Source of the DNA: Fulvia fulva
Lineage: Eukaryota; Ascomycota; Dothideomycetes; Mycosphaerellales; Mycosphaerellaceae
NCBI RefSeq assembly: GCF_020509005.1
Contig: NC_063013.1
Coordinates: forward strand, 930,001-994,000
Length of the DNA stretch: 64,000 nt
Reading direction: 5' to 3'
A program made the position numbers and the translations under genes. Below the pieces are notes generated by a model that had not been told where the DNA came from, ran no database searches, and saw only the letters and a list, made by a program, of their open reading frames with translations. Positions 1 to 56,539 of the stretch are shown here, in pieces. Position 1 is the first letter of the stretch; the number at the start of each line of letters is the position of its first letter.

Positions 1-453
1 TAGGAGTAGGACTAGAAAAGGAAGCCCCCTAAGATAACAGGCCCGATAGTACTCCGAGCCTTCTAGAGACACAATTACTAGCTATATAGGGACCTAATAA
101 GGGCCGAAGTAAGTAGAGCGATTCAAGTTAGGTCCGAATATATTAGATTAAGGGCCTACCTATTTAGGAGACGCGTACTAGACATCTAAAGCCTAGTCTA
201 CTAGTATAGCTACCTATCGTAAAACCTAGAATATATACTACTACGATACCCGTAGTAGGCGAGTAGTAGGGGAAATTAGAGGCACTAAGCGGGAAGGCGA
301 GACTATAAGTTAATTATTAGGGACAAAGGTAATATTCGCCGAATCTCTCGGTAGATATTATAGTAGGGATACCTCTAGTAGTTTAGCCTAGCTAGCGAGA
401 CGGAGGAGTAGATAGATAAGAGGCGGAAGTTAGAGGGGTTATATATAGGGTAG
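1..453 (+). pseudogene. LINE-B copy B2, C-terminal part of ORF2 (RIP-mutated, cut by window edge)
   Basis: This stretch aligns base for base with about 29707-30155 of the full-length LINE-B1 copy and differs almost only by C/T and G/A changes. It covers the region after the reverse transcriptase domain, including the degraded C-terminal Cys/His segment, and runs into the 3' UTR. Many in-frame TAG/TAA stops make it non-functional. The 5' part lies outside the window. At 453/454 it is interrupted by a chimeric LINE; the remaining 3' end resumes at 3733. The bases 441-453 (ATATATAGGGTAG) are repeated at 3733-3745 as the target-site duplication of that insertion. Confidence 0.85.
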
Positions 454-1530
454 AGTCGACAACGAGAATTACCTATACGTAGTATCGGCTACGAACCTCT
501 CGTCTTACTACGAGAGAGCTAAGTATTCTTACGCTAGAGCGTCGTAGGCGCGACGGGCGCGTAACGTAGGCGAAGCCGCGGCGAATAGAGGACTACTAGT
601 AAAACGGGTATAAAAACTATCCGACGAGCGTATACTCGTGTCGGGAGCGAGTCCCTCTTCTTTCTACGTATAAGAAGGGCGCGGAACCGTAGCCTATACG
701 CTCGATAGGACACCTCTAGTATAAGTATAGAATTTTTACCTCTAGAGACCGTAAACTAAGCGGGCCGAGCGACGAATATTAGACGAGCGGACTAAAGACT
801 AACAACTAAGCGGACTATACGACGGCGTCGAGCGGACTACGAAAGAATCTAGTATTTACTAGCGGGCAATACGGTAGGTAGGTAGATACGTGACGAAGCC
901 TATAAGGGCCTATCAAGTCCCCGGTATAGGAACGAGGGTTTTACCTAAGGCACTACCTATCCCGCTACATAACGTACCTAGTCTAATATAGTAGATTACG
1001 ACGAGGAAAAGACAATAGTCTAAGTAAGGAAAAGACGGCTATTAGGACGGAGAAAAGACGTATAATACGAGTAGATTAGTTCTATAATCGGGGAGGATCG
1101 AGGGTAGGGTAATAAGGAACTTTATATTAGTTAGTAGGTAGAAACGTAAGGAGTACGCTACCCGGCGTAGTGTATACCCCGAGCAAACCTACGAGGTATA
1201 GACGGCCGCTTTCTAGAGATAGGCTACGGTAACGCGAAGGGCGTCAAAACCTAGGGCGTAGTATATACTAGTAGCGACGGCTAATACTATCTATATAGCC
1301 CGAGAGGACGGATACGTATATCAGTTAATAGAGAGTACTAAAGGGCTTAGGCCTATAGAGGTGGATATTAGCTTAAGGACTAAATAGGGAGGGAGGGCGT
1401 AGAGGGAAGCTTTTGCTCCGGGCTAACCTCTCGAAACGAAGCTATACGGTAGTACTAGATAAGTAGGAAAGCGCGGTTAAGACTTATTACCTTATCTCGT
1501 AGCTAGCTTACTAAATACGATTCCTTCCTT
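454..1530 (+). repeat. Module D, RIP-mutated copy (noncoding ~1.08 kb)
   Basis: Colinear with 54099-55176 over its whole length. The differences I checked are CpA/TpG to TpA, with this copy carrying the mutated state. No reading frame of note exists in either copy. It begins with GTCGAC and ends with TTCCTTCCTT in both. It contains short palindromes (CTCTCG..CGAGAG and CTTCTT..AAGAAG types) and a cluster of GAGCGGACTA-like decamers around 770-850. Its function is unknown. It could be a discrete structured RNA captured by a LINE, or the 5' region of an unseen LINE. Confidence 0.8.
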
Positions 1531-3590
1531 ACCTAGGACTAGATAGGATTCCAAACTTGTTTATCAAGACATATAAGGACTAGATCTCCCCTATACTATT
1601 AAACATCTTTTTATAGTATATAGCCTAAGGACACTACCCTAAATACTTTAAGGAGTCACTAACTATAGTCTTGAGACAACTATAGAAAGAGGACTATATA
1701 AAGCTAAAGGTATACAGACCTATTGCCTTGCTTAATACACTAGGCAAACTCCTAGAAAAGATTATAGTAGAAAGGCTAACAAACCTAGCTAAAGAACATA
1801 GAATCCTTCCTAAAGAACAGATAGGAGGTAGGAAATAAAGATTAATACTAATAGCTATAGAACTTATTACAGAGCAGATCAAGACCCTATAGCACTTTAG
1901 GAGTAACAAAGTAGCCACACTCCTCTTACTAGACATATTAGGAGCCTTTGACAATGTCTTATACTAGAGGCTGATCTACATCCTAAAACAGAAGGCTATC
2001 CCTAACTAGACAGTCTAGTTCATCTAGTCCTTCCTTAGAGGCAGAACTATAAGACTAAGACTAGGTAGATATAAATCTGACAGTATGCCTATAGAGACAG
2101 GAATCCTATAGGGATCAATAATGTCTCTAATCCTGTTTCTCCTCTTTATAGCAGACCTACTAGCAAGGCTAAACTCTAGAAACACATTAGCCTTAGGGTT
2201 TGTAGATGATATAAACATCCTAGCCTAGTCAGATAGTATAGAAGAGAACTGTAGAATCTTATAGAAGAAACATAAGGAATGTGAGGAATAGGCTAGGAAA
2301 TATAGAGCTAGATTTGCCCTAGAGAAGTATCAACTTATCCACTTTAGTAGAGCCAGAAATAGACATAATATACAAGCCCTAATCACTATTTAGGGACATA
2401 TAACAGAACCCTTAAGTGAATTAAGGGTGCTAGGAATATGGCTAGATCTAAAGCTTAGCTAGGGACTATAGGTCAAGAAAGTATAGGTAAGAGCAGACAA
2501 TAACAGGCAATTAATTGACAGGCTTATAGCCTCTATATAGGGAGCTACATTTGCGAAAACAAAGGTTATATACAAGGCTATTATAAAGCCAGCTATGCTA
2601 TATAGAGCCTAGATCTAGTCAGCCTAAGACAAGATCCTAAAGAGAATTATAGATCCTATTAGTAGAGCCTAAGCCTCCTGTCTAAAAAAGGTGCTTAGAG
2701 TATATAAGTCAACTCTAATAAGGGTGGTCGAAATGGAGTCTAGCTCCCTACTAGCTAAGCTCTACCTTCAAGGGTTAAGATACTAGTATATAGGAAAGAC
2801 GTCTATATACCTAGCCTAGCTAGTAATCTAGAAGGTAGTTAACAAAATTAGGAGCTAGTATATAAGAAGGCATAGACAAGTAAGACCTAATCTAGCCTAT
2901 AGAAGTAGTAGGACCTATAGAAGTTCAAAGAACTAATAGAATAGCTACACCTAGCCTAGTAGGAACAGGACAGAAGGGCTTAAGGGAGAGGATTAGTAGC
3001 TAGCTAAGAGAAGAAGTAATAGTCTCTAGCTAAAAGGATAGTAGGACTCCTCTAGAAGACTGAATAGATAAGAACCCTATAGAGGCTAGGAACCCTTAAG
3101 GCACTCTAACAGTTTAGTAGCTATAACTACCTACTATACTTAGACCTAACTAGGTTAGAAGTAAGCATAGCAATACAAATCCGCTCTAAATATATAGGAG
3201 TTAGGGCATACCTATATTAGAGAAAAGTCCTAGGTATCGAAGATAAGAGTTGCCTATACGGCTACCTGTCCTAGAATGTCGAATATAGACTTCTAGTTTG
3301 TAAAGAATAGAGTATAGGGAGAGGTGAATAGAGGGTAAGGGCAAGGAACAGAAACTTCTAAGCTATAATTAGTAATAAGGGAGACCTCTAGAGAATTATA
3401 AGGTGGATTATCTACTAAGGATTTTTGGAGCAGTTCTCTCTTACTAGGGAAATAGAGAGATAGATTGAGGAGAGAAAGAAGGAGGAGGTGAGTAGGAAGA
3501 GGGGGACAACTCTAGGGTTATAGACAAGGTAGTCAGAGGCTAACCACTATAACACTAGTATACCCTAATAGAAGGAAAACTAAGAACTTA
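1531..3590 (+). pseudogene. LINE-C ORF2 relic: reverse transcriptase and C-terminal region
   Basis: Conceptual translation, read through stops, gives a non-LTR reverse transcriptase. It starts at a degraded PGPDGIPN-like block. It then shows KEDY..YRPIALLNTLGK (about 1690-1750), a LLLDILGAFD-type block (about 1925), a GIPQGS-type block (about 2100) and the catalytic FVDD near 2200. Downstream is a degraded LINE C-terminal domain. The endonuclease and ORF1 are absent because module D replaces everything 5' of the RT fingers. The relic is more similar to LINE-B than to LINE-A but clearly a separate family. Numerous TAG/TAA codons from CpA/TpG decay inactivate it. Confidence 0.8.
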
Positions 3591-3732
3591 TAGCAAGGAA
3601 GCTATTAGAGAAGGAGAGGAGGTTTTTACCTAGGAATAGGTTTCCTACCTTATATAGTAATATATATAGACATAAACCCGTATAGGCCGGAGGGCACTAC
3701 AACGGGTAAATAAATCATCAATCTATCTATCT
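3591..3732 (+). other. LINE-C 3' UTR with conserved hairpin-like motif and TCTA tail
   Basis: Contains GGTTTTTACC, a short spacer and AGGTTTCC (3621-3645), matching in layout the 3' UTR motifs of LINE-A and LINE-B. ACCT/AGGT can pair as an inner stem. The element then ends in ATCTATCTATCT-type repeats rather than poly(A). This is probably the region recognised by the reverse transcriptase; that role is inferred from position and conservation only. Confidence 0.6.
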
Positions 3733-3943
3733 ATATATAGGGTAGTCATTAGGGCAGGCCTATAACACTAGCGCACCCTTGATAAGGGAAATCTAAGACG
3801 AGAACGAGGGGGAAAAGATAGGCGGGAAGGAGGAGGGGTTTTTACTAATACGGTTTCCCCTCTATATATATAAAAACAAGATAGTATAGCTATATAGGCT
3901 AAAGGGTACTACAATAGCTTAATAAAATATCTATCTATCTATA
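3733..3943 (+). mobile_element. LINE-B copy B2, 3' terminal UTR and TCTA tail
   Basis: Resumes the B2 copy after the chimeric insertion. It matches about 30155-30353 of LINE-B1, including the GGGGTTTTTACT..GGTTTCCCC motif and the terminal (TCTA)n run. The first 13 bases are the second copy of the chimera's target duplication. About 50 bases after it (3944-3996) are not assigned to any element. Confidence 0.85.
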
Positions 3944-14332: not shown

Positions 14333-14556
14333 TATATACGGAGGCGATTTATTATCGATCGATCTCTGCGCCAAAACACGACACATTCGAAAGCTCTTAT
14401 CAAGGCCATTCCAACGATATAAAAAGCAGGCCACTGCCCCTAGGACTGAGGGAGTTCTACCCCATTCAATCTGGACAGCTTGAAGCTCTCTTCACCCTGT
14501 TTCTTCAGCTCCAAACGCCGCGGAGGTGCCTAGCTACATTAGGCAACTCCTAGGCA

Positions 14557-15834
14557 ATGGCAGCCCAGGCTACGGTACTAACGGCGCCTACGGCCCTACA
14601 GGCGAAGCCCCCCCAAGACAACTGGCAGCAACTTATAGAGGACGCAAAAAGCATGGAAACTAACGATCAGCTCCCTTACCGGTCTCTACAGGTAATGATC
14701 ACTCAGCTACGCACGGCGCTTGTACTGTCGTATCACCGAGGGCAACAAGAAATGAGGACGACGTCCCAGGCGATTAGCAAGGCCACCCGGAATCAACACC
14801 CCCATAGCTGGGCATCGGTCGCGGCATCGATACCAGGCCCCCGCCCAACGCACGATGCAGTTACGATCCGCATTGCAGCAAAGGAAGACCAGGCCGAAGT
14901 TGCGAAGCTATCGAACAAGGAGCTCGCCCAACGAATTAACCAACCAGGGGTGGTCGCAGTGAACCAACAGTCTAACGGCACTCTACAGATCTATACTAGC
15001 TCTGCTACTGCTAGGAGGCACCTAGAGGCACAGCCACAGTGGGCATCTAAGGTTGCGGCATCAGCGAAGGTCTCAACGAAACAATTCACGATCCTAGTCC
15101 ACGACATGCCTAAGGAGTTTGACCCAACCAACCAGGGTCACCTACGCGCTCTCCAAGAGGACAACCCGGTCACTCTTAACTCTCCAATCCAGAAGGCGAC
15201 TTGGCTCCATAGGAAATGGCCAGAAGGCAAGAAGGCCTCGGCGCTAATAGTATGGCTACAAGACGCGAAAGCGGCGGATCTAGCGATAGAACAAGGCCTG
15301 GTCTGGCAATACAGCCTCAAGACAGTAGAAAAGCACTCCTCATCCTTTCGTGTCCTCCAATGCTTCAAATGCCAACAGTATGGACACCAAACCTACACGT
15401 GCACAAACAAGCAGGCCTGCTCGAACTGTGCAGGAGACCATATGTCTAGGGACTGTACATCGACTACGAGACGGTGCGCGAACTGTCCGGGGCACCACCC
15501 ATCGTATAGTGCGGAATGCCCACAGCGGAAACTAGCGAAAAACAAGGCAATCACAAACAGAACCGTCGCCCCAAGATTCTACGGCGACCGTGAGGCTAGC
15601 CCACACCGGAACCAACTAGCGGCGGTCGGGCACAAGCGCCCTAGGGCCGAGAACGATGTAAAGGATGCGCAGCCTAGGGCGTACGGGAGGCCACGTGCTC
15701 TGCTAGCTGCGGCGAGGGAATCTAACCAGGCCCGGCTCCCCTTTAGTACACAGCCGATAGGCGTAGACCAGGACGCACAGGGCAGTAGGACACAGGACGA
15801 TACAGAGGAAATGATTGTCGATGCCGATGACTAG
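14557..15834 (+). CDS. LINE-A1 ORF1 protein, gag-like RNA-binding protein (425 aa)
   Basis: Starts at an ATG that is destroyed in the RIP copies. The N-terminal half (about 1-260) has no motif I recognise beyond a Gln/Ala-rich start, and a middle region (about 100-255) reads like the ORF1 core of fungal LINEs. Three zinc knuckles follow: C269-x2-C-x4-H-x4-C282, C288-x2-C-x3-H-x4-C300 and C307-x2-C-x3-H-x6-C321. The C-terminal tail is basic and then ends acidic. Such proteins bind the element's own RNA to form the retrotransposition particle (known for the class). The stop at 15832-15834 overlaps the start of ORF2, suggesting coupled translation. No premature stop is present. Confidence 0.92.
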   Translation: MAAQATVLTAPTALQAKPPQDNWQQLIEDAKSMETNDQLPYRSLQVMITQLRTALVLSYHRGQQEMRTTSQAISKATRNQHPHSWASVAASIPGPRPTHDAVTIRIAAKEDQAEVAKLSNKELAQRINQPGVVAVNQQSNGTLQIYTSSATARRHLEAQPQWASKVAASAKVSTKQFTILVHDMPKEFDPTNQGHLRALQEDNPVTLNSPIQKATWLHRKWPEGKKASALIVWLQDAKAADLAIEQGLVWQYSLKTVEKHSSSFRVLQCFKCQQYGHQTYTCTNKQACSNCAGDHMSRDCTSTTRRCANCPGHHPSYSAECPQRKLAKNKAITNRTVAPRFYGDREASPHRNQLAAVGHKRPRAENDVKDAQPRAYGRPRALLAAARESNQARLPFSTQPIGVDQDAQGSRTQDDTEEMIVDADD

Positions 15835-18800
15835 CCTCGACACGCTTAACATCATCCAGTATAACGTCAACCATAGCAAGGATATAGTCCAGAACCATTT
15901 CCTACACGAGGCGGACCCGCGCGTCCACCACGTCCTTGCAATCCAGGAGCCATGGATTAACCCGCACCATAAGAGACCAACGACCTGCAAGTCACCAGGC
16001 TACACGACATGCCTACGAGGCGACGGCAGACCCCGCACGTGCTTCTATGTCAGCAAGGACATACTAGAATCCGACTGGGAGGTAGTGTACTACGCAGACG
16101 AAGAAGGCGGGGGCGATATTACCTCCCTCCACGTGGGTAGCACCTGGATACACAACCTATACATGCAACCGCCAGCCTCGAGGTCTAGCCGCGACCTAGG
16201 GGTCTGCAGACACCTAGACAGTGCGCTCAAGAGACAAGGGTGCCACATCGTAGTAGGAGACTTCAACATACACCACCCTTCCTGGGAAAGCCTTATGCAG
16301 CCGCACCCTATAGCCGACGAAGTACTCGACTTGATGGCGAGCAACGCAATTGCCCTCAATACCCCGAAGGACCTGGGCACCTGGAAGAGAGGGGGACTCC
16401 AAGGCACGATCGACCTCTCCTGGATCTCAGATAGCCACTACCACACGGTAACCTACTGTGGGATCGAACATGAACTCGAGGCGTCGTCAGACCACATGCC
16501 AGTCAGGACCTCTATTGCGACACAGATACAACGCACACCAGCGAGAACCCCTAAGCCAAACTGGGGAAAGGCCCACTGGGCCAACATCCAGGCGTACCTC
16601 GATGACTCCAAGAGGCTAGTCCAGATCGCGCAGCAGCAATACAACAGTAAAGACGAGATAGACGAAGCAGTCCAGGGGTTGACAGACGAAATAAGAAAAG
16701 CGACCTCACTTCACGTTCCGCTTGCCCAACCAACGACATGGTCCAAACCATACTGGACGCCGGAGTGCACTGCGGTAGTAAGAGAAGCAAGGAGAGCCCG
16801 CCGGGTGTGGACGAGCAGCCATAGCGAGGAGGCCTGGAACGTATACAGGGAGGCATGCCAACAGAAGAAAGCCATAATACGGAGGGAGAAAGCAGTCGGC
16901 TGGAGGGCCACAGTGGAAGAAATCGCCGGCAAGCCAGAGAGGATGTGGAAGCTAGCGAAATGGGCCCGACAGGACCCTACACAGGGCCCCTCCTTCTCTA
17001 TCCCAGCGCTACAATCGCCTAGTGGCCCGGTTAGCGACCCCGAGGCCAAGGCGCGTCTACTGGCTAGCAAGTTCTTCCCACCCCCAGTCGAGGCTGATCT
17101 AAGCGACATAAACAGCTCTACTCCCCTAGCCCCTAGCATCGCGGTCCAACAGGAGGTGTCCGAGGGAGAAGTTACCGCTGTGCTGAGGAAGTTGCCGGCG
17201 AAGAAAGCCCCGGGGCCGGATGGGATCCCAAACGAGCTACTAAAGAAGTGTAGAGATCAACTAGCCCCAGCAGTTGCAGCGATCTTCAACGCCTGCCTAC
17301 AGACCGGATACCACCCGATAGCTTTTAAACAATCGACGACAGTGGTCCTACGCAAGCCGCAGAAGGAAGACTATACGCAGGTGAAGTCGTACCGCCCAAT
17401 TGCGCTCCTTAACACTCTTGGGAAGGCGCTTGAGAAGCTGGTTGCAACGAGACTCTCCGAGGCGGCAGAGGAACACTCCCTACTCCCGGACACCCAGATG
17501 GGTGCGCGCCCACAGCGATCGACGCTATCCGCGATGGAACTTATCACCTCTCAGGTAAAGGCCATCTGGTATAAGAATAGGGACAAGGTGGCTTCCTTAC
17601 TTAGCCTAGACATATCGGGAGCCTTCGACTACGTGTCACACCCGCGGCTTCTCTACATCCTAAGGTCGAAAGGACTCCCTGAGTGGCTTGTCAACTTCGT
17701 ACGGTCCTACCTCCAAAACCGCAGTACGTCGATCCTGGTCGGCCAGTACAGAAGCCCATTTCAAGCAGTCCACACTGGAATCCCGCAAGGCTCAACGCTA
17801 GCACCTATTCTGTTCCTCTTCTTTATGGCGACGCTGCTCCCAGCCCTAGAATCCCAGAACACCGCTGCGAGCGGCTTCGTAGACGACACAAACATCCTAG
17901 CGTGGTCTTCCTCGACTGAGGAGAACTGTAGGCTACTAGAAGAGAAGCACAAGATCTGCGAGGACTGGGCTAGGAGGCACGGGGCTCGGTTTGCCCCAGA
18001 AAAGTACAATCTGATACACTTTACGCGCCGGCCACGGTTCCACAATATGCAAGCTTCTATCCAGATACAGGGGCACACGACTAACCCGGCAAATCAGCTC
18101 AGGATCCTCGGACTATGGGTGGACCCGGCGCTACGGTGGAGGAAGCACGTACAGGCAATATTACGGAAAGCTGAACAGAATATGGCATCATGCCAGAGGC
18201 TCACTGCGTCCACATGGGGGGCGGACTTCCGGCAGTCACGACTTCTATATACGGCTATTGTACGGCCAGTCCTTACCTATGGCAGCCAAGTGTGGTCCTT
18301 AGGCGAGAGGGCCTGCCCATCGAAGGGACTCGTCGCGCCGCTAGCGAAGATCCAAAACCAATGCCTAAGGAAGGTCACCGGGGCATATAAGTCGACACCA
18401 ACGAGGATGCTTGAGCACGAGACCGCTATACCGCCGATCGACCTATACATCCAGGGACTACGGACCTCCTACTTAGGCAAGTCGGCACAGTACCCAGTAC
18501 AGAAGGTCATCGCCAGTGCAGTCGCAAGGGCCCGCGAATCAGTACCAGCGCATAAGGGCATTCGACCCGGAAACGAGCCGAACTACCGGGCAAGGGACGA
18601 ACAGCTAGCAACACAATGGGAAGGTGAGAAATCGTTTGTAGAGCAACTATGGAAAGAGAGGTGGAACAACCAGGTTGTAGGGCATAGTGGACGCCCTCAG
18701 CCAGCGGGACAACCTAAGGAATGGTCAGCTACAAAATCCGCGGTCAAGCACCCCCCGAAGCTCATCCACTACCGCCTTACGAGGGCACAGAGTAGCATAG

Positions 18801-19138
18801 CAACCCAACTGCGAAGCGAACACATCGGCCTCCAGGGGTACCTATCATGGAGGAAGGTCCCAGGATACACGAATACTAGCTGCCCCTGCGGCTATCGCTC
18901 CCAGAACGTACGGCACGCACTCCTCGTCTGTCCGAGGTGGTCGCTAGGAAGGGGGGAGTGGATGGCAAAGGCGAGGAACCGGACGATTGGGGCACTTCTT
19001 AACAACGCTGAAGACCTACGGCGCATTACGAACTGGATACTAGAGAAGGGCTGGCTAGAACAGTACCGCCTAGTAGGAGCAGTGCAGGAAGAGAGGACAC
19101 GACGCAGCGCGACGAGACCGGCTAGGAGCGGGGGCTAA
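15821..19138 (+). CDS. LINE-A1 ORF2 polyprotein: AP endonuclease and reverse transcriptase (~1105 aa)
   Basis: Two in-frame ATGs, 15821 and 15827, both lie inside the end of ORF1. Residue numbers here count from a TTG two codons upstream of 15821. The endonuclease domain is about 10-235: QEPW at 44-47, GDFN at 148-151, TIDLSW near 198-203 and the catalytic SDH at 225-227. The RT domain is about 450-760: KAPGPDGIPN (464-473), YRPIALLNTLGK (526-537), LDISGAFD (598-605), GIPQGS (655-660) and catalytic FVDD (688-691). A C-terminal zinc motif C1023-x-C-x8-H-x4-C1039 follows. I see no RNase H domain, unlike Tad1 itself. EN nicks the target and RT primes cDNA synthesis from the nick (known for the class). 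All core catalytic residues are present. Confidence 0.95.
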   Translation: MPMTSLDTLNIIQYNVNHSKDIVQNHFLHEADPRVHHVLAIQEPWINPHHKRPTTCKSPGYTTCLRGDGRPRTCFYVSKDILESDWEVVYYADEEGGGDITSLHVGSTWIHNLYMQPPASRSSRDLGVCRHLDSALKRQGCHIVVGDFNIHHPSWESLMQPHPIADEVLDLMASNAIALNTPKDLGTWKRGGLQGTIDLSWISDSHYHTVTYCGIEHELEASSDHMPVRTSIATQIQRTPARTPKPNWGKAHWANIQAYLDDSKRLVQIAQQQYNSKDEIDEAVQGLTDEIRKATSLHVPLAQPTTWSKPYWTPECTAVVREARRARRVWTSSHSEEAWNVYREACQQKKAIIRREKAVGWRATVEEIAGKPERMWKLAKWARQDPTQGPSFSIPALQSPSGPVSDPEAKARLLASKFFPPPVEADLSDINSSTPLAPSIAVQQEVSEGEVTAVLRKLPAKKAPGPDGIPNELLKKCRDQLAPAVAAIFNACLQTGYHPIAFKQSTTVVLRKPQKEDYTQVKSYRPIALLNTLGKALEKLVATRLSEAAEEHSLLPDTQMGARPQRSTLSAMELITSQVKAIWYKNRDKVASLLSLDISGAFDYVSHPRLLYILRSKGLPEWLVNFVRSYLQNRSTSILVGQYRSPFQAVHTGIPQGSTLAPILFLFFMATLLPALESQNTAASGFVDDTNILAWSSSTEENCRLLEEKHKICEDWARRHGARFAPEKYNLIHFTRRPRFHNMQASIQIQGHTTNPANQLRILGLWVDPALRWRKHVQAILRKAEQNMASCQRLTASTWGADFRQSRLLYTAIVRPVLTYGSQVWSLGERACPSKGLVAPLAKIQNQCLRKVTGAYKSTPTRMLEHETAIPPIDLYIQGLRTSYLGKSAQYPVQKVIASAVARARESVPAHKGIRPGNEPNYRARDEQLATQWEGEKSFVEQLWKERWNNQVVGHSGRPQPAGQPKEWSATKSAVKHPPKLIHYRLTRAQSSIATQLRSEHIGLQGYLSWRKVPGYTNTSCPCGYRSQNVRHALLVCPRWSLGRGEWMAKARNRTIGALLNNAEDLRRITNWILEKGWLEQYRLVGAVQEERTRRSATRPARSGG

Positions 19139-19312
19139 CGGGGTAGTGACATGGACTACGTACGTTCAGAGGGAAAGCTAATCTAGACAAGGAGTAGTCG
19201 GGGGCGGGAAGGGTTTTCACCTATTCGGGTTTCCCTTTGTACATAACAATAGATATATACCTGCATAGGCCGGATAAGGTCCTAGAACAGGGGAATGACA
19301 AATCTATCTATC
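19139..19312 (+). other. LINE-A1 3' UTR: hairpin motif and TCTA tail
   Basis: GAAGGG (19208-19213) can pair with CCCTTT (19233-19238), with one G-T pair. Between them an inner ACC..GGT stem follows a U-rich bulge. LINE-B has the same layout with a different outer stem (GAGGGG/CCCCTC). The UTR ends in AATCTATCTATC. In other LINEs a 3' hairpin is the RT recognition site; here that role is inferred. Confidence 0.65.
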
Positions 19313-19326
19313 TATATACGGAGGCG

Positions 19327-20507
19327 GAAAACTTACTAGGGGATAACAAACACCTAGCCCGGGTATATAAGAACACTATAGCATAGCTACTAGGAGCGCT
19401 AAAAGCGCTATTATACTAAATCCCGAAGACAATCTAACAAGTAATACAGAAGGTAGCCTAGAAACTAACTATATAGGTAATAGTAGTAGTAGGTAAGAAT
19501 TAACCCCCTCCGAAGGCAAGTAAGGCGGTACGCCTATATATTACTAATCCGGCGGAGAAACAAGAAATCGTAGCCCTAATAAGCAAGGAGATTGTCGACA
19601 GAATCGGCTAAAAGGAGGTAGTTAGGGCGAGGGTAGAGGCAATAGACGTAGTAAGACTCTTTACCGTATAAGAGTCTAATAGACGAAAGCTAGAGACCTA
19701 TAAGGAGTAGACTACTAAAGTCGCGAAGTCGGTACGAGTCTCCTACTAATAGTATACCGTCATCGCCTACGGGGTCCCTAGGATATTCAAGGTCGAAGAC
19801 CTTCCCTACCTCTAAGTATAGAACTAGAACGCCTCCCTAGGAGTACGACTAACGAAGGCGGTATAGCTATATAAGACAGTAGACCGAGAAAAGACGTATT
19901 TATTGCTTATTATTTAGGTAGAAATAGCGGAACAAGCTAACTAGATACTAGACAATAGGCTATTCTATAACTACGAGAGAATAGACACGGAGATCTATTA
20001 GAGTAGCTATAGGGTACTACAATGCTTCTAATACTAATAGTACGGTCATATAGCCCTAAAATACGGGGGGAAGACCCTAAGGTGTCCTTACTACGTAGGC
20101 CTATACTAGGGAAGGGAATGCCTAAAAAGGAGAGTAGGTACGTATACTACGGCAGAAGGTACCTAGCGTATTTAAGCCAATGCCTAGCTAGAATAGTAGT
20201 ATAAGAACGAGCGAGACAAGCAAGGATCTCTATACTAGCTAGGTACCCCTAACGATAGTAGGAGGGACCTACCGTATATAAGGGCTTCGAGCCGAGCAAA
20301 AGAAAGAGGGTAGAAGAGACGAATAAGGGAACCTAACCGTAAACGTATCTACCTCCTAGTAGGCCTCGACACCTTGACCGGGCTACTAACGGACTAGGCT
20401 AAATATAAATCTTTAGGGCGCCCTAGCGGCCCTAGGGCTAGCCGGACAGCGAGATATAGGCTTAGGAGACATAGTAGGTTAGTATAGAAATGGACCTTAC
20501 GGATAAC
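19327..20507 (+). pseudogene. LINE-B1 ORF1 (gag-like) relic
   Basis: Continues LINE-B1 after LINE-A1. Read through stops, it gives a gag-like protein with a recognisable zinc-knuckle block near 20010-20110 (RVLQCF..QQYGH..), where several Cys codons have become Tyr. The following C-terminal segment is basic and ends near a DLTDNE block at about 20495-20507. The N-terminus probably lies upstream of LINE-A1. Many RIP stops; not functional. Confidence 0.75.
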
Positions 20508-22311
20508 GAATAATACTATACGACGACATTACTATCGAATAGTATAACGTAAACAAAAGTAGGGACAAGGTCTAGCGCCACTTTCTATAAGAGCTAGACC
20601 CGCTACGGCACTACGTTATTACGGTATAGGAACTATAGATCAACCCCTACGTAGGACTCCTAGCCACTTATAATGACCGGAGATACTATACCGTAATCGC
20701 GGGCTAACGAGGCGTTATCCCGAGGACATATATATACGTAAGTAAGACTATAGACCTTAAGTCGTAGAAGGTTATACTACCGTAGTAGGGTAACCTAGGA
20801 GACATAACATCAATCTAGATCGATACGATATAAGGCCCTATCTAGATCTATAACGTTTATAACCCGCTACCGCGGGGTCGGACGAGTAGGGAACTAGGAA
20901 CCCTCGCCTACCTAGAGCGGACCCTAAGCTAAGATATAAAGTAAGTACTCCTCGGCGACTTTAACCTCTACTACCTATAGTAGGGACTCGAATTCACTCC
21001 CCCGTACGCGTTTCTAGGGGGGAAGCTACTAGATATAACCGTACGCTACGGAATGGCCTTAGTAATACTAAAGGGAATAGAGACGTAGAAGGCACGTACT
21101 AGTATAAGCACGATCGACCTATACTTTCTATTACGAGAACTTGAAGAGAGACTAGTCTAATACCGACCGAACTACGCGCTAGAAGCCTCCTTAGACTATA
21201 TCCCTATCTAAACGACGCTAGGGGTAAAGGAGATAGAGGAGCTAGTAAACGAACTACGCCGTAACTAGAAGAAGGTACGCTAGGACGATATAAGAGGCTT
21301 CCTAATAGCGAACCTACTATAGTATAGAGAACTCGAGACGACAGCTTAGCTAGATTAAGTAGCGGAACAGATTACCTCGGTTATATAGTAAGTAGCGGAA
21401 TAATATACGCCGTTACTCCGGCCCTTAACGTAGTAGAAGGCCTTCTAGACCCCTAAATGCTCTACGAAGGTAAGGGAGGCTAGAAGGGCAAGGCGACAGT
21501 AGACGAAGGAGTATACCTAAGAGACGTAGGAGCAATACTGTTACGCGACACAAGAGAAGAAGGCATAGATAAGACGCGATAAGCTATAGGACTAGAGAGC
21601 GACGATCAGGCTCGTTATAGAAAACCCGGAATAGATATAGAGACTTACTAAATAGGCACGACTACCGGGAGAGTAACAAGCCCCTTACTTCCCCCTAATT
21701 ATAGACCGCGAAGGGATTGCCTAGGCTACGCCCCGGGGTAAGGCAAAAGCGTTAGCCGACCATTTCTTTTCGACGTAAGTAGAGGTAGACCTTACGGATA
21801 TCGACCCGAGTATATACCCGGAACCCCTAGAAATAGATTAGGCGGTTAGCTCTAATATAGTAATAGGAGTTATAAGTAAGCTAAAAGGACGAAAAACCCT
21901 AGGCCTAGATAGGATACTAAACGTACTACTAAAAGAGTATAGAGAAGAGATCGCGCCGAGCCTTATAAACCTATTTACCGCGTACCTACGGCTAGGGTAT
22001 TACCCGAAGCCGTATAGAGAGTCTATAATAGTAGTACTACGTAAGCTATAGAAGGAAGACTATACTCAGCCCAAGTCGTACAGACTAATAGTACTTCTAA
22101 ATACGATAGGGAAGGTCCTAGAAAAGATAGTAGCCTAGAGACTTACGTAGCTTACCGAGGACAACTACGTACTCCTAGCAATATAGATAGGGGGAAGAAG
22201 CTAGCGATCGACACTAATAGCAATAGAGCTAATTACGGAGCAAATTCAGACCCTCTAGCACTACGGTAGGAACCGAGCGGCGTCCTTACTATCCCTTAAG
22301 ATCGTAGGGGC
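20508..22311 (+). pseudogene. LINE-B1 ORF2 relic, endonuclease and N-terminal RT
   Basis: Begins with an EQYNVN block near 20530, as in LINE-A ORF2. It continues with LLGDFN near 20945, a TIDL block near 21113 and a decayed SDHxP block near 21195. The RT fingers run from about 21840, including a degraded PGPDGIPN block, YRPI..LLNTIGK near 22075-22110 and the residue block before LDxxGAFD. It is split at 22311 by Gypsy-3 exactly within that block and resumes at 28603. Confidence 0.8.
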
Positions 22312-22832
22312 TATTAGGGCGAGAGCCTAGCCTATAAGATATAAGGGTAAAAGCGAGAATGTAGGTACGAAGTGTAGATACAAAAGGGTATAGTATAATT
22401 ACTACACAAAACAAAAGACGAAGGAAGCAAGAGAGGCCTAGGGAAGGCCAGATATTTATACGCGACCCTCGCGAGTGCGTGTCCCCGTATTAATAGGGCT
22501 AACCCGTACGAAGCCGCGCTTAGTAGCTTTACTCAAAACCTTATTCCAACCTGCCCTACGTTCCGAGTCTTCCACGTGCTTCTTCTAGGGTCTAGCGTAG
22601 TCGCGGGTACTCGCGGGAGTGCCGTAAGTCACATAGTCACGAGCCGAAGTAAATCTGTTAAGGTTTAGTAGAGGGGTGAATTTGGAGGGCTAGGTCCCGT
22701 AGTAAATATTACGGGGTATATGATTCTTAGCGCTTATACACTAAGCTAGACTATCACTTCTTGACGACTTCTGAGCACTCTAAGGCTCTTCTGTCCCCAC
22801 CTTCTATACTCTCTATAGGGAGACTATAATAG
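22312..22832 (-). repeat. Gypsy-3 3' LTR (~521 bp)
   Basis: Near-identical to 28083-28602. The differences I noticed are mostly CpA/TpG-type. Terminal bases read TATT..AATA after RIP. It is followed on the right by the polypurine tract complement, so it is the 3' LTR of a minus-strand element. Confidence 0.92.
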
Positions 22833-25800
22833 TAGCCCCCCCGAACAAAGCTAAGTTCCTACGAAGGCGTAGTAGTTCTATATATCGAGGATGTTCAGCT
22901 TCAGTACTAGGCCTAGGCCTAATATTATAGTCGATACACTATTAGTAAGCCCCGTCGAAGAGCTTAGATTCGAAGAGCCTGCCGATGTTAACTTCTAGGC
23001 CGTCTACGCGGGCGTAGTATTCTTCGATTGCTTGACGATTAAAGATGATATATTAGATAGGTTCCTATAAGGTATCCTACTTAGGGCAACCTTACTATTC
23101 GACTTTATACTTGATCGGCGGTAGTCCTTTAACGTCGTTAGGCTCTACGCGGATTCCCCGGATCTTACGGACGGTATAGTCGTTAGAAGGTAGGTTAATA
23201 GGCTCGTCGACTTCTACTTTATCGGGAGGACCTAGTATGTCTTAGTTTTAGTTCGGGAATAGGTCCTTAGCCGACGGCCGAAGGCGTACGGGATAGAAGA
23301 CGTCGTGGATCTTTATGTTCGTAGGAAGAGCTAGACGGTAGGCGTGTGAACTAATACGCTCGGTGATCTCAAAAGGACCTAGGTTCTTCTAGTTCAGCTT
23401 CTTAGAGGGGCGGTCTGTCTTAATGTTCTTAGAGTTAAGGTAGACTATATCGCCTACTTAGTAGTCGGGAGCTAGCTAGCGACGACGATTAGCTTGATCC
23501 TCGTAGATTGCTTATACGTACACTATCTCGTCGTGAACTTCTTTATAGATCTATAAGAGTATAGTAGCGAACTCGTCTACTACTTACTCGTTTGCGTCTT
23601 CGGTAGGCGGGAGAGGTTCTTCTAGTTCTATGCCTATACGAGGGTAGTAACCTCTCGTAGTATAGAAGGGAGAGTAGCTAGTAGTCTCCGAGTCCTAGTT
23701 ACGAGTAGCGAACTCTACCGTAGGGATATACTAAGGCCAATCCTTCTAGTGGTAGTCGACGAAGTAACGAAGGACCTACTCGAGGATAGCGTTCGTAATT
23801 TCGGTCTAGCCGTCGGTCTATAGCTAAAAACTGGTCGAGAGGTTATACTTGATACCTAGGATAGCATACAGACGCTTCTAGAAGTACGAGATGAACTGGG
23901 TACCTCTATTAGAGGTGATGCTATCCGGGAGGCCTTAAAAGCGCCAGACGAATTCGTAGAACAAGCGAGTAGTCTCCTTTACGGTCATACTCTAGCACGG
24001 GATTATGTACCGGTCCTTAGAGTGACGGTCCACGATCACTAGAAGGGCCTTTGCTTTTACGCCGCTAAAGGTCTTACCGTAAGGAAGATCGGTAATAAAG
24101 TCTATAGTAATGTGCTTCTACGGACGATTAGGAGCCGGGAGAGGGTATAAGAGACCGTAGGGACGGTAGCGGTTAGCTTTAGCTCTTCGGTAAGTAGCGT
24201 AGTTTAGTACGTAGCGGCGGACGTCCTTCTAGGAATACGGCTACTAGTAATACCTAGCGAGGAGCTTATAGGTCTTAGCTACGCCTAGGTGACCCCTAGA
24301 GGCGGAGTCGTGGATGATTTAAAGAATCTTAGCTCGGATATTAGAGCCTTCGGGCTACGGTACGTAAAGCTTCTTACGGAAGTAGACGACACCTCCCTAG
24401 AGCTCGTACTCGGACAGCGAGAAGCCCGGGAATGTCCTCGCGCCAGATTCAAGGGCCTGAACTAACTCTTAGGCGTCTATGTCGGCATCGTACGCTATTC
24501 GTACTCGTGCTATAATACCTTCGGGCTGCTCCTTATTATCAAACCCCTTAAAGTCTAATTCGGATAAGCCGTCGGTCGTTACTAAGCCCTCTTCATCGTC
24601 GTTCAAGTCCTTAGCGTCCGAGGCGTATTCTTCAGGCTCGGATTTATCGTCACTCTCGTTAAGGTAGGTAGGAGCGAGCACGAGAGTAGCAAAGGAAGCG
24701 GCGAGCGTAGGCTAGCCGTTCGATAGGTACTCTCGAAGCTCGGAAGAGAGGTTGTACTCTTTGATAACTTGTTGCCCTACGATTTGCCGGCCCCCTCTTC
24801 GATCAACTAGAGAGTCACTAGGGCGGCGGGTAAGGGCGTCGGCTATCGAGTTGGCCTTACCGGGCGTATACGAGATCACGAAGTTAAACCGGGAGAGGAA
24901 CTCGCTCTAGCGGGCCTAGCGACGATTAAGCAGCTTGCTCTTTATAAAGTAGACGAGGTTCTTATAGTCGGAGCTTACTTAGACGGGTATAGTAGAGCCT
25001 TCGAGCTCGGGGCGCTACTCTTCGAAAGCTTTGACGATAGCGAGAAGCTCCTTGTCGTAGATCTCGTAGTTATACTCCGTAGCGGTCATCTTCTTAGAGA
25101 GGAAGGCGATAGGTAACCAGGGGGATTCAGGCGAGCGGCGTTATAGCAGGACACCGCCCACTACGCCGTCGGATACGTCGGTCTCTATACGGGTCTCTAG
25201 TTCGAAATCGAAGTGCCGTAGAAGCGGGTTCTTAACAAACTTCGCTTTGAGCAAGTCAAAAGCCTCCTAGCATTCGTCGGTCTAGGCGAACTTCTCACCC
25301 TTACGCGTAAGCTTCGTTAAAGGGCGTACTACGCCCGAAAATGCGTAGATGAAGCGGCGGTAGAAGTTAGTAAAGCCTAGGAAACCCTAGACCTCTTTGA
25401 CGTTCGTAGGAGCATCCTATTCGACGATAGCGTCGATCTTCTCTTAGTCTATCTTGATGCCGTCTGCGGTAATGATCAAACTAAGGAACTTGACTTCGGT
25501 CTTCTTAAACTCGTACTTATCGATATCGAGCTACAAGCCGGCGTCTACGAGCTTCTAAAGGACCTTATAGACGTGCTCGCGGTGCTCCTCCTTAGTCTCG
25601 CTATAGACTAGGATGTCGTCGATGTAGGTAGTGTAGAACTGATCGAGGAACTCCTAAAGGATGTCGTTAATAAAGTTCTAGAAGGTACTAGGCCCGTTAT
25701 AAACGCCGAAGGGCATAACGAGCGACTCGAACAGCCCGTAGCGAGTACGGAAGGCTATAAGATACTCGTGTCCTTCTACCATTCGTAACTTATTGAACGT

Positions 25801-26830
25801 AGCGATAACATCGAGCTTAGTGAAGTACTTGGCCTTAGAGAGGCGCTCGAGCGTCTCCTAAATTAACGGTATTAGGTAGCGGTTCTTCTTTATAATAGCG
25901 TTCAAGCCTCGGTAGTCTACGTAGAAGCGTAGACCACCGCCGGGCTTCTTAACGAACATGACGGGACTGCTAGCGCTAGAACGGCTCGCTCGAATGAACC
26001 CCTTCTTTAGGTTCTCTTAGAGGTATCTCTTAAGGACGATAAGCTCTTCTCGGGACATAGAATATAACGGTCCGAACGGTGTCTCTACACCTTCTTCTAG
26101 CTTAATCTTATAGTCGTAAGGGCGATAAGGAGGTAGCTCGTCTACGGCTTTAGTATCGAATACGTAGAGGATGTAGTGTGCCTAAGGAGGGACCTTCGTA
26201 GTAGGGTCGGTAGGTATACGCTTCTTGTCGAGCTTCTCGAGGGCGATGTCGATATCGCGGAGAGAGGCGGCGAAGACTTGAGCTTTAGGCTACTTAGTAG
26301 TAGTAGTGAAGGTAGCGGCGTTCACCTAGAAGATCTTAGTATACTTAGGACCGCGCTGAGGCGGCGGAGAAGGCGGAGGTGCCGGAGGAACTTCTAGAGG
26401 GAAGCTGATAGTAAGGGAAGTCTAGTCGATAATAGGTCGGTGTCGTCTGAACTAGGGGAGGCCGAGGATAAACTTCTGATGCGGTAGGGACGTAAGGAAG
26501 CTAGTGATCGACATACGCTTACCTCCGAGGGTAATTGACGTGTGTATAACATAAGTAATCTTACTAGTAGTAGTCTCCGTACCGTTAAAGAGTTCAAGGG
26601 TGCGAGGGTACTTTAGTTCCTAGGGTTCGAGGTTAAGAGAGGTCGCGAGTTTATAGTCTATAAAAGACTCGCCTAGTACGCTAGTGTCTATAAGAGTGAG
26701 ATTAGAAGAAGAGAGTTTCTTTAAGCCGATATTTACATTCGTAACGAACGGTTTGTAAGCGTGGTCCTTGCCCGTCTCGTCGTATAGGTCTAGCTATGCT
26801 ATATTGATCCTCAACTTCTTTCCTCTCTTC
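22833..26830 (-). pseudogene. Gypsy-3 pol relic: protease, RT, RNase H, integrase, chromodomain
   Basis: Minus-strand reading through stops gives: a retropepsin block (LIDTS near 26690); RT with MPFG near 25710 and an intact YIDDILVYS near 25620; RNase H (about 25250-24850); an acidic linker (about 24680-24470); an integrase with an HHCC-like start near 24310, IDF near 24110, a mutated SDRGTQF (SNRGTQF) near 23930 and DGQTE near 23810; and a chromodomain near 23190-23020 (YKVE..GC-x-Q-DT-x-QEP). The Asp-to-Asn change in the integrase core and the multiple stops inactivate it. Chromodomains steer integration of this class to heterochromatin. Confidence 0.88.
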
Positions 26831-28060
26831 ACTTTCGGTAAACGTTGTTCTTGGTCTTTATCGCGTCGATAAGGAAGACCTAGGCTTTTTCCTACTTAGC
26901 GGGAGCAGTAGGAGTAGGCTCGATAGCGCCGATAGCGCCGCGAACCGGGTTACGGGCGTTACGGGTAGCGAGCTACGGACAGTTAGCTACGATGTGGCCT
27001 GGACCGCCGTAGTAGGTATAGAGTCCGGCCTAGCGACGGCGAAGCTTCTCTTCGGGAGTGAGCTTACCGTTGACGAGGCCCTAGACTCGAGGGACGGCGG
27101 TACTAGCGCTAAGATCTATAGCGTTACCTATAGAGACGGGAGGGAGAGCCGTAGGAGCGGCGGCGCCTAGTAGAGCAGCGAAGTGGCTTCCGGGACTACG
27201 AGGCTGACGACCTTAAGAACGGGAAGCGAGGAGAGAGGCGGTGTGTTTTATGTTAGAGTCGAGGCGCTAGTAGGTCTCGACGAGCTTACGGAAGCTTATA
27301 GTACCGACGTCCTTGTCCTCGAGGGCTCGAAGAAGCTCTACTAACAAACTACGGCGGAGAGTGCTCTTCTTAGTCTCTTCGTTATAGCCGGTAAACCCGA
27401 TGTCGCGGTTAAAGGCCGCGAGGTACTCGGCGAAGCTCTTGTTCTTCTAGAGGAGGTTATAGATAGCGTTCTAGGCGGTGGCTCTACGGTCTAGATCACT
27501 AAAGGCAGCACGGAGGTCCTACATTAAGGTGAGGACGTCCGGGTAGCCGATAGTCTGCGTAGCGTTGTCGATGTAGTGTTATACCTAAGCCGCGGCGTCT
27601 CCCCGAAGGAGGGAGAAGACGTACGTAACTTTGTCCTTCTCTTACGGAAAGTGGTCGGCATTAGCTAATAGCTTAATAGTAAGCTATGTCTTAAATGCCT
27701 CAAACTTGCTCTTATTACCGTCGAACTCGTCTAGGTCGTTGACCTTCTTAGAGAAGTACTAGCGGCGGTTATCGTCGGCGTACGGGGCGAGGTTCTAGAA
27801 GGTGTTTATAATACCTTGAAGGTATGTTACTTAGTTATTTGCTTGCTCGACCTACTGGGCGGTCTCGCGGAAAGAGGAGACGGTACGGTTAATAAGAGCG
27901 TAGGCGGTATCGGGGTTAGCGTTTGCCTAGGCACCGAAGGTAGCGGCGTTCGAGAAGGGGATGTTAGTCTACTTACTAAAGTAGAATAGAGTGTCTTGGT
28001 TGTCGAGGTTGACACCTCTATCGGTGGCGTGGTCACCTATAAGGATGACTCGAGTAGTTG
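26831..28060 (-). pseudogene. Gypsy-3 gag relic
   Basis: Runs from the 5' LTR side (about 28040, Pro/Ser/Thr-rich start) to a single zinc-knuckle block near 26990-27030 (..GGPGHIVANCP, with Cys codons partly turned to Tyr). The core resembles a retrotransposon gag domain by position and composition. Stops are scattered; fewer than in Gypsy-1. Confidence 0.7.
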
Positions 28061-28082
28061 ACGGTTTGTTAGTCTTTTATAA

Positions 28083-28602
28083 TATTAGGGCGAGAGCCTA
28101 GCCTATAAGATATAAGGGTAAAAGCGAGAATGTAGGTACGAAGTACAGATGTAAAAGGGTATAGTATAATTACTACACAAAACAAAAGACGAAGGAAGCA
28201 AGAGAGGCCTAGGGAAGGCCAGATATTTATACGCGACCCTCGCGAGTACGTGTCCCCGTATTAATAGGGCTAACCCGTACGAAGCCGCGCTTAGTAGCTT
28301 TGCTCAAAACCTTATTCTAACCTGCCCTACGTTCCGAGTCTTCTACGTGCTTCTTCTAGGGTCTAGCGTAGTCGCGGGTACTCGCGGGAGTGCCGTGAGT
28401 CACATAGTCACGAGCCGAAGTGAATCTGTTAAGGTTTAGTAGAGGGGTGAATTTAGAGGGCTAGGTCCCGTAGTAAATATTACGGGGTATATGATTCTTA
28501 GCGCTTATATACTAAGCTGGACTGTCACTTCTTAACGACTTCTGAGCACTCTAAGGCTCTTCTGTCCCCACCTTCTATACTCTCTATAGGGAGACTATGA
28601 TA
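28083..28602 (-). repeat. Gypsy-3 5' LTR (~520 bp)
   Basis: Partner of 22312-22832. Left of it (28060-28082) is the leader with the presumed primer binding site, whose tRNA I could not identify. Confidence 0.92.
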
Positions 28603-30155
28603 GGGGCCTTCGATAACGTCTTATACTAAAGGCTAATATATATCCTATAGTAGAAAGGCATCCCCTAGTAGGTAACGACGTTCGTCTACTCCTTTCTCTA
28701 GGAACGGACGACATACCTAGTCCTAGGAAGGTATACGTCCGACCCGGTAAAGGTAGAGACTAGAATACCTTAGGGATCTACTCTCTCCCCTATCCTGTTT
28801 CTGATATTTATTTCGGATCTAATCCCCCTACTCACCTCTCCGTAAACCTTAGTATCGGGGTTCGTAGACGATATAAACATCCTAGCCTAGTTAGACTCGA
28901 TAGAAGAGAACTGTCGCCTCCTTAAAGATAGGCACAAGAAATGCGAGGAGTAGGCAAAGAAGTATAGTGCCCGGTTCGCCCCTAAAAAGTACTAACTTAT
29001 ACACTTTAGTAAAGCGAGAACACACTATAATATAAAGGCGGCGGTAAGAATCTAAGGCTACGAGACCAAGCTATTAGCGGAGCTACGAGTACTAGGGATC
29101 TGGCTCGACCCGAAGCTAAGCTAGAATATATAGATTAAGAAAGCCTAGAGTCGAGCGCAACTTAATAAAGCCTCGATAAAGAGGCTTACGGCATCTATAT
29201 AGGGAGTAACATTCGACAAGGCAAGAGTAATATATAAGGCGATCGTTAGACTAGCTATATTATACGGGGTATAGATTTAGGGAACAGGAGGCGTAGGCAA
29301 GCCGATCCCGAAACGGATAGAGCAACCCCTAAACAGGATATAGGTAGGTAACCTACGTAGGGTACTAGGCGTATATAAGACAACGTTAATAAGCACGGTA
29401 GAAATAGAGATAGGAATACTACTAATCGGCTAGTATATCCGGGGAATAAGAATTTAATACGCGGCAAAGACGACAGGTTACCTAGTACAAACTACGATCT
29501 AGGAGGCAAAGAATAAGATAGAAAGCCGCTACCGGAGAGGGGCAGGACATAGGACAAGCTAAAAAGAGGATGACCTTACTACCTTTACGGCTATATAGAC
29601 AAGTACCGAATGGCTAGCACGAAAAGAGGAGGAGCGTAGGACTCGCTAGGCCGGCGGGAGCAAGGCTAAGACCTAAAGCCTAGCGGAATAGATAGCGAGC
29701 TACCTATAGGAGTAGGACTAGAAAAGGAAGCCCCCTAAGACAATAGGCCCGATAGCGCTCCGAGCCTTCTAGAGACACAATTACTAGCTATATAGGGACC
29801 TAATAAGGGCCGAAGCAAGTATAGCAATCCAAATTAGGTCCGAACATATTAGATTAAGGGCCTACCTGTTTAGGAGACGCGTACTAGACATCTATAGCCT
29901 AGCCTACTAGTATAGCTACCTATCGCAAAACCTAGAACATATACTACTACGATGCCCGTAGTAGGCGAGAGGTAGGGGAAATTAGAGGCACTAAGCGGGA
30001 AGGAGAGACTATAAGTCAATTATTAGGGACAAAGGTAACATTCGCCGAATCTCTCGGTAGATACTATAGAAGGGATACCTCTAGTAGTTTAGCCTCGCGA
30101 GCGAGACGGAGGAGTGGATAGACAAGAGGCGGAAGCGAGGGGGGTTGTAGATAGG
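28603..30155 (+). pseudogene. LINE-B1 ORF2 relic, RT palm and C-terminal domain
   Basis: Resumes at GAFDNV directly after Gypsy-3. The catalytic FVDD is near 28865, followed by N-I-L-A and EENCRLL, conserved with LINE-A. A C-terminal segment near 29930 preserves the spacing of the LINE-A zinc motif with cysteines mutated. Many TAG stops. No RNase H motif seen. Confidence 0.85.
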
Positions 30156-56526: not shown

Positions 56527-56539
56527 TATAATACCCCTA

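Follow-up and report, generated by a model that had tools for sequence, protein, structure and literature searches.

The closest described system to the one reported here is MINE of Magnaporthe grisea/oryzae, in which a full-length copy of a ~1.1 kb non-coding RNA, WEIRD, stands 5′ of a 5′-truncated LINE, MGL, and the whole is flanked by one target duplication of 10–20 bp (PMC2104539). The breakpoints in the LINE are variable and partly repeated, and no solo copy was found in that 2007 study. The switch motif was given as GCC*A/U, with GTC, GCT and AGC among the variants in the table; microhomology was stated to be absent and the nature of WEIRD was left open (PMC2104539). It is established that HDV-like ribozymes can head LINEs, as well as the short elements that parasitize them (PMC3774820, PMC3414825, PMC4035085).

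Here, we focus on module D, a 1,078-nt unit of Fulvia fulva (Cladosporium fulvum) whose composites have the same anatomy as MINE: a full-length RNA copy, a 5′-truncated LINE in the same orientation, one target duplication, variable and partly reused breakpoints with a GCC*A/U-like switch, and no solo copy among the junctions examined. Module D is probably a linear RNA of ~1.08 kb, headed by a ribozyme, that has been joined to LINEs by template jumping. The Race 5 assembly of Cladosporium fulvum comprises 67.17 Mb in 14 chromosomes, the smallest of 460 kb, and LINE/Tad1 accounts for 16.3% in it (PMC9453070); by this published annotation, the LINEs of the composites are presumably of the Tad type.

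Module D and its copies

The window, the whole stretch of 64,000 nt that was analysed (C2:930001–994000), contains two copies of module D (table 1). Copy 2 starts at the first G of GGTCGAC and its last base is the G after TTCCTTCCTT. The two copies align end to end, and 114 of the 126 positions at which copy 1 differs are G>A or C>T, the pattern expected of RIP. The earlier note had given them as 454–1530 and 54099–55176; the second interval stands, while the first gains a base once the RIPped last position is counted.

Table 1. Features of the window that bear on module D, its predicted ribozyme and its LINE partners.
Feature	Position	Strand	Remarks
Module D copy 1	454..1531	+	RIPped; base 1531 is A where un-RIPped copies carry G; 88.4% identity to copy 2
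HDV-like ribozyme of copy 1, decayed	454..530	+	one pair lost in each of P1 and P3; no descriptor match
LINE-F part of composite 1, 5′-truncated, TCTA tail	1532..3731	+	
Target duplication of composite 1, 5′ side (TATATATAGGGTAG)	440..453	+	14 bp
Target duplication of composite 1, 3′ side (TATATATAGGGTAG)	3732..3745	+	
LINE-A copy	14357..19315	+	two long open frames; donor family of composites
LINE-B copy in pieces, other insertions between	19312..30353	+	matches to L012
Module D copy 2	54099..55176	+	un-RIPped; 4 other genomic copies tie with its self-score
Predicted HDV-like ribozyme	54099..54175	+	cut before 54099; catalytic C candidate 54164
P1 (predicted)	54099-54105/54129-54135	+	GGUCGAC with nt 31–37 GUCGGCU; 7 bp, includes G1–U37
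P2 (predicted)	54109-54114/54170-54175	+	GAGAAU 11–16 with AUUCUC 72–77
P3 (predicted)	54116-54118/54126-54128	+	ACC 18–20 with GGU 28–30; 3 bp, 7-nt loop
P4 (predicted)	54142-54147/54156-54161	+	CUCUCG 44–49 with CGAGAG 58–63
LINE-A part of composite 2, 5′-truncated, TCTA tail	55177..56526	+	
Target duplication of composite 2, 5′ side (TATAATACCCCTA)	54086..54098	+	13 bp
Target duplication of composite 2, 3′ side (TATAATACCCCTA)	56527..56539	+	

Both ends of the module are constant across the genome (67,169,167 bases in 14 contigs). The 3′ end, searched as the 21 nt preceding the final base, gave 218 un-RIPped matches and, with the RIP change at the first base of the same pattern, 328 RIPped matches; the reversed control gave none. 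A 36-mer of the un-RIPped 5′ end (from nt 2) gave 143 matches, fewer, we think, because the 5′ pattern holds more RIP targets. Of the 100 listed among these 143, 94 have a listed un-RIPped 3′ end no more than 60 bp off the expected distance. The other six (C2:5658592, C3:652759, C3:4151939, C5:4119750, C6:1940641 and C6:3616162) have no such partner and are candidates for interrupted, 3′-variant or solo copies. When the best 40 of 656 first-pass candidates were scored, a sample biased toward young and complete copies, 40 full-length matches and one covering nt 168–1078 were obtained, and the top score was common to five matches, window copy 2 among them. The 20 composites fetched are the best-scoring and hence the youngest copies; in all 20, as in window copy 2, the module starts with an identical G right after the duplicated target, and window copy 1 has A at this base.

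A protein-coding module was rejected, the longest stop-to-stop frames being 79 aa on the plus strand and 101 aa on the minus strand. One D pattern had no match in IMG/VR contigs, Rfam at the gathering threshold returned nothing for the whole window, and all of D at a permissive E gave a single lncRNA match at chance level, which was discarded. The description of D as a discrete non-coding unit with constant ends, first drawn from the window copies, is supported by the genomic 3′ ends and by the absence of a long ORF. The module also contains short direct repeats, with a GAGCGGACTA-like unit present in four copies spaced by 22–27 nt and GGAAAAGACG in three copies spaced by 23 nt, and these are possible protein-binding or folding units.

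LINE partners, breakpoints and insertion

The earlier note had proposed listing the copies of D with what follows each, and this was done for 198 of the 218 un-RIPped junctions and, among the 328 RIPped ones, for those of window copy 1 and L010. In the 198, the module continues into LINE-B (71), LINE-A (59), LINE-F (42), LINE-E (20), a fifth LINE (1) or a truncated D (5), so that the two LINE families counted earlier become five. The letters A, B, E, F and G are names coined in this analysis; L149 was counted as LINE-F on a 99% match where the script had called E, and L083 was counted under LINE-B at only 78.6% identity. No solo D occurs among these 198 junctions, the 3′ boundary of D is the same in every one, which the earlier note had made a test of its reading, and no poly(A) lies between D and LINE in the junctions examined. 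Several apparent solo copies were rejected: L069, L085 and L118 run into 5′ parts of LINE-B; L131 is the fifth LINE, which carries LDISGAFD; L123 and L157 have their matches in L015, in stretches that immediately precede the LINE-E copy there and are here taken as the probable 5′ part of LINE-E; and L063, L194 and L205 join LINE-A 5′ ends, with 25–43 unplaced bases between D and LINE. Across all 218 junctions, TTCCTTCCTT is followed by G-C-Y (163), G-C-R (16), G-T (18), G-A (1) or A (20). Among the last, 18 read AC and one AT, as RIP of TG would give, and the remaining one (L031) is a D–D joint.

By eye, window copy 1 joins LINE-F at the codons for PGPDGIPN and window copy 2 joins LINE-A at those for LDISGAFD, as had first been read. 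The LINE-A parts of 11 composites are 99.3–99.96% identical to the LINE-A copy of the window, which has a frame of 425 aa without a Pfam family (14557–15834) and one of 1107 aa with endonuclease and reverse transcriptase (RT) domains (15815–19138); the same two domains are found in ORF2 of LINE-B. The 5′ part of LINE-B lies at 13992–14346 and from 19312 on, and the pieces at 20121–22311 and 28602–30353 match the LINE-B part of L012. The 5′ ends of LINE-A vary (L151, L194 and L205; 14373, 33068 and 41662 in the window), with different leaders ahead of AAAACACGACAC, as if LINE-A RNA may start at, or upstream of, varying points.

A total of 190 junctions could be mapped, and their 105 distinct sites are spread over LINE-A, B, E, F and G and over D itself; the eight left out are seven whose match starts past base 5 and L090, which fell outside the trimmed LINE-F reference. 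A fixed 3′ end of D facing 105 breakpoints supports the earlier proposal that the RT changed templates, leaving the LINE RNA for another RNA at whose 3′ end it resumed. The breakpoints carry a motif, R-Y^C, at 76 of 89 distinct donor sites compared with 1,161 of 18,181 LINE positions (a background of 6.4%); a few of the 89 lie one base apart and are possibly one site, and the other 16 of the 105 fall in RIPped, partial or end-of-reference stretches. The base replaced by the final G of D is a pyrimidine at all 89 sites and is preceded by a purine at 79, and the first retained LINE base is C at 84. A single C would usually be shared between the LINE break and the 3′ end of D, which suggests a possible pairing of one nucleotide.

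Use of the sites is uneven. There are 250 same-site pairs where ~15 are expected under equal use of R-Y^C sites, an excess that can mean hot spots, re-copying of composites, or both. The codons for LDISGAFD/LDIAGAFD are hot in several families (8 joints in LINE-A, 11 in LINE-B, 10 in LINE-F and 1 in LINE-E, judged by eye). It is conceivable that the composites do not stem from many independent jumps but from a few founders multiplied as whole units, the variety of breakpoints being old: 31 of the 105 sites are used repeatedly, one of them 11 times and one 10 times, and the 10-copy site, in LINE-F, carries the rare G-T junction and accounts for 10 of the 18 G-T junctions in total. We nevertheless consider this rather unlikely, if slightly less so than the other alternatives, since 74 sites are used once, young composites of differing breakpoints and LINE families carry an identical D, which argues for many captures of the same RNA, and RIPped and young joints coincide at A3349, B2172, B1087 and B2431, as hot spots would.

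The module is also found joined to itself. In five D–D joints a full D 3′ end meets an internal position of a second D, at nt 164, 167 (twice), 296 and 370, with R-Y^C at four of the five; the two joints at nt 167 come from different locations on C9. These joints indicate that D RNA also acts as a donor.

Each composite appears to have entered the genome as one unit. In all 22 composites with both ends (20 fetched and the two of the window; L010 is cut before its end), one target duplication of 11–16 bp and a TCTA tail are present, and the bases that immediately precede D are found again directly beyond the TCTA tail. Insertion as a unit ending in TCTA repeats had been proposed for the window copies, and in both the duplication does adjoin the tail; a single duplication per composite also holds, and the 13 bp given for both applies to copy 2, that of copy 1 being 14 bp. 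In L151, which is the L063 locus, 35 unplaced bases separate D from a LINE-A that begins with its own 5′ end, and the duplication lies beyond LINE-A. The LINE-A part of composite 2 has an internal gap of ~360 bp at 56184, from either an internal jump or a later deletion. Elsewhere, five RIPped D 3′ ends at exactly 3,318 bp spacing (C2:2705820–2719113) suggest a DNA-level tandem array of a whole composite, and C1:8826060–8835422 holds a similar series of three, ~4.67 kb apart (L117, L119 and L121).

A predicted ribozyme at the 5′ end

An HDV-like self-cleaving ribozyme can be fitted to nt 1–77 of D, with a predicted cut at exactly the first nucleotide of the module. The nested double pseudoknot can be drawn with P1, P2, P3 and P4 and a C-N-R-A in J4/2; P4 is followed by AGCCAAGU, which contains C-N-A-A. 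The G1–U37 wobble of the predicted ribozyme matches HDV itself. A descriptor that combines rules for P1, P2, P3, L3, P4 and C-N-R-A matches the plus strand of D at nt 1–2 only and the minus strand nowhere, and it matches the first base of D in L011–L030, window copy 2, L010, L151, L152 and the older D in L021. Outside D, five matches were found in 543,230 strand-bases (window and loci, excluding L001–L008, which are repeats of other stretches), none of them at another LINE 5′ end and at the same rate as in 7,678 dinucleotide shuffles (77 matches, 0.0093 per kb), a rate that gives no clean p-value because the descriptor was written after the fold had been seen.

Rfam lends weak independent support. 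On 111 bases (the first 102 of D and 9 upstream), the best of 4,227 families was RF02682 (HDV-F-prausnitzii), whose match is full length and starts at exactly 54099, with a score of 13.1 bits, far below the gathering threshold of 44, and an E of 1.9 over all families; two further matches on the same bases were at chance level and were set aside. The D of L152 shows 42 differences from module D, namely 37 substitutions, of which 14 are outside the RIP direction, and 5 gaps; only one of the 42 falls within nt 1–77, in the P4 loop, whereas a proportional share would be ~3. Most ribozyme pairs are kept in RIPped copies, which is weak evidence, as a pair changed by RIP often still pairs as G-U or A-U, and comparative covariation is absent because the D copies compared are near-identical or RIPped. 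Pseudoknot-free folding energies were no better than those of shuffles for nt 1–82 (z −0.13) or nt 1–1000 (z +1.16). Copy 2 further contains a perfect 12-nt inverted repeat between the P4 region and the 3′ region (D 51–62/1042–1053; 54149–54160 and 55140–55151), which is not used as evidence, since only 10 or 11 of the 12 are found in older copies.

A 5′ ribozyme leaves the fixed 3′ end of D unexplained. The module has no T-run at its end, no tRNA-like 3′ end and no second ribozyme in its 3′ 231 bases, and Rfam at a permissive E gave nothing relevant there. Pairing of the 3′ end with a purine tract around 55031–55046 is possible, in a fold no better than shuffles. An origin from Pol III was judged unlikely, there being no B box, two A-box-like matches and three TTTT runs inside D.

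Origin of module D and comparison with known systems

Our proposal can be divided into the making of D RNA and its capture. Module D would represent, in DNA, a linear non-coding RNA whose two ends are fixed, and the HDV-like ribozyme would most likely make the 5′ end, freeing D from longer transcripts. Target-primed reverse transcription of LINE RNA would begin at the TCTA tail, and the RT would stall at R-Y^C and jump to D RNA at its 3′ end (...CCUUG or ...CCUUGC), one C being shared in most cases. The RT would then copy D up to the ribozyme-defined first G, and the product would be inserted with its single target duplication. Sometimes a prior jump between two D RNAs may occur, giving D-D-LINE. 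The resulting composite, which starts with a ribozyme and finishes as a LINE does, should be open to re-copying as a non-autonomous, SIDE-like unit.

The captured RNA was not uniform. The D of 21 young copies differs by 0–2 positions, with G at nt 537 in 11 of them and A in the other 10; both alleles are joined to LINE-A and to LINE-B, and a 449A variant occurs with two breakpoints. Together with the L152 variant, these alleles imply more than one form of D RNA over time, which either one evolving source or many sources would fit.

The earlier note named both a parasitic and a cellular RNA as possibilities, and the balance has since shifted. Module D could be an ordinary host non-coding transcript, as proposed for WEIRD, abundant enough to be caught by the LINE RT, the composites being dead-end retropseudogenes. 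The near-identity of the 21 young copies fits one or few source genes, and WEIRD was reported as highly expressed and as a possible housekeeping RNA (PMC2104539). We regard this as unlikely: solo D is absent from the 198 of 218 junctions, and the predicted ribozyme lies exactly at the 5′ end, as in several retroelements. The two nt 537 alleles also point to more than one D RNA, although one evolving gene would fit them too.

A second possibility is that D RNA comes from tandem or circular forms (a retrozyme, a viroid-like RNA or an extrachromosomal circle) in which the ribozyme of the next unit sets the 3′ end, so that one ribozyme could explain both ends and the missing genomic source. Head-to-tail D–D units, the hallmark of retrozymes and circular RNAs, had no match in the assembly (0–12 spacer bases, main RIP change allowed), the folding of nt 1–1000 speaks against a viroid-like rod, the D–D joints are of the jump type (3′ end to internal site) rather than the circle type, and the minus strand is without a descriptor match; this origin is improbable. 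Least probable is that D is the 5′ UTR of a LINE and the composites internally deleted copies, a reading that could draw on the HDV-like ribozymes at LINE 5′ ends in other organisms and on the three loci with D before a LINE-A 5′ end, yet what comes after D, at 105 sites among the 190 junctions, is any of five LINE families or a second D, so that no one intact LINE carries it as a leader, LINE-A copies without D have leaders of their own (copy 14357 adjoins its target duplication), and other LINE 5′ ends in the 543 kb lack a descriptor match.

With a predicted ribozyme at its first nucleotide, D looks more like part of a mobile element than like an ordinary cellular RNA, and this prediction, with the lack of a solo copy, makes a cellular RNA less likely than a parasitic or mobile one. 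We lean towards D being a mobile, parasitic RNA across its forms. More tentatively, and with somewhat less than even confidence, D may be an obligate template-jump parasite, which has no host gene and never enters by mimicking a LINE 3′ end, with WEIRD as a second example. As such a parasite, D would be freed by its ribozyme from any transcript crossing its composites, a separate second step would fix its 3′ end, and the R-Y^C jump of the LINE RT would paste it onto any LINE being copied. If WEIRD is indeed a second such element, the lack of solo WEIRD would be explained.

The composite type is already known; newly described, as far as the titles and abstract openings of the publications listed show, are the scale, the number of LINE partners, the D–D joints and, above all, the 5′ ribozyme. 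At that level, none of these publications links HDV-like ribozymes to such fungal composites; in the collection searched, none combines HDV ribozyme, Magnaporthe and retrotransposon, and none combines hepatitis delta ribozyme and Cladosporium fulvum. For template switching and fungal LINEs, PMC2104539 alone was on the subject among the matches listed. The word 'ribozyme' does not occur in PMC2104539, nor 'ribozyme' or 'chimer' in a five-isolate Cladosporium fulvum paper. A second WEIRD-like system, for which a chromosome-level genome offers hundreds of joints and in which a predicted ribozyme starts precisely at the first base, lends itself to short tests of whether D cuts itself, where D RNA ends and whether WEIRD shares the same 5′ fold. 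The joint collection provides natural data on where a fungal LINE RT releases its template, namely at R-Y^C, and it suggests a route to ribozyme-headed non-autonomous elements by RNA jumps instead of DNA recombination.

Among known systems, mammalian L1 chimeras with U6 and other RNAs share the jump from a LINE template to another RNA; their acceptors are small RNAs, Alu and mRNA fragments, and a 5′ ribozyme is not mentioned in the sections drawn on (PMC13174262, PMC4476161). Fungal HDV variants have the same architecture and an extra nucleotide, mostly C, between P2 and P3, as at nt 17 of D, whereas their consensus has an E-loop in P4 and typically C-G at the cut, where D has a plain P4 and G-U; their gene associations are widely variable, with no LINE composite among those described in the sections drawn on (PMC5640933). 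The Pr77 ribozyme of the trypanosomatid L1Tc/ingi elements frees retroelement RNA from co-transcripts, as is proposed for D; unlike D, it belongs to the LINE clade itself, and the abstract does not speak of variable junctions (PMC4035085).

The R2/R1 SIDEs of Drosophila come closer, being non-autonomous elements with a 5′ HDV-like ribozyme, immediately followed by the 3′ part of another LINE, and a 14 bp target duplication (PMC3414825). D composites likewise have a 5′ ribozyme, by prediction, a LINE 3′ end and a flanking target duplication. SIDEs form few lineages in rDNA, for which the authors favour DNA recombination (PMC3414825), whereas D composites carry ~1 kb of non-ribozyme sequence after the ribozyme and are joined at many sites.

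The likeness to MINE that the earlier note had seen in the design is closer than it supposed, as the switch motif also agrees with the published one: GCC*A/U fits R-Y^C (PMC2104539). If the last base of the motif is shared with the acceptor, GCC and GTC both read R-Y-C and AGC misfits; agreement with the published MGL table was judged by eye. By published description, WEIRD (1113 nt) is of similar length to D (1078 nt), and a single double jump, the tripartite WEIRD-MgSINE-MGL, is comparable to the D–D joints. MINE comprises 33 bipartite elements and the one tripartite element, and involves one LINE plus a SINE (PMC2104539), against at least 546 D 3′ ends and five LINE families. Two further features set D apart from MINE as described: donor jumps inside the module, and a predicted HDV-like ribozyme at its first nucleotide.
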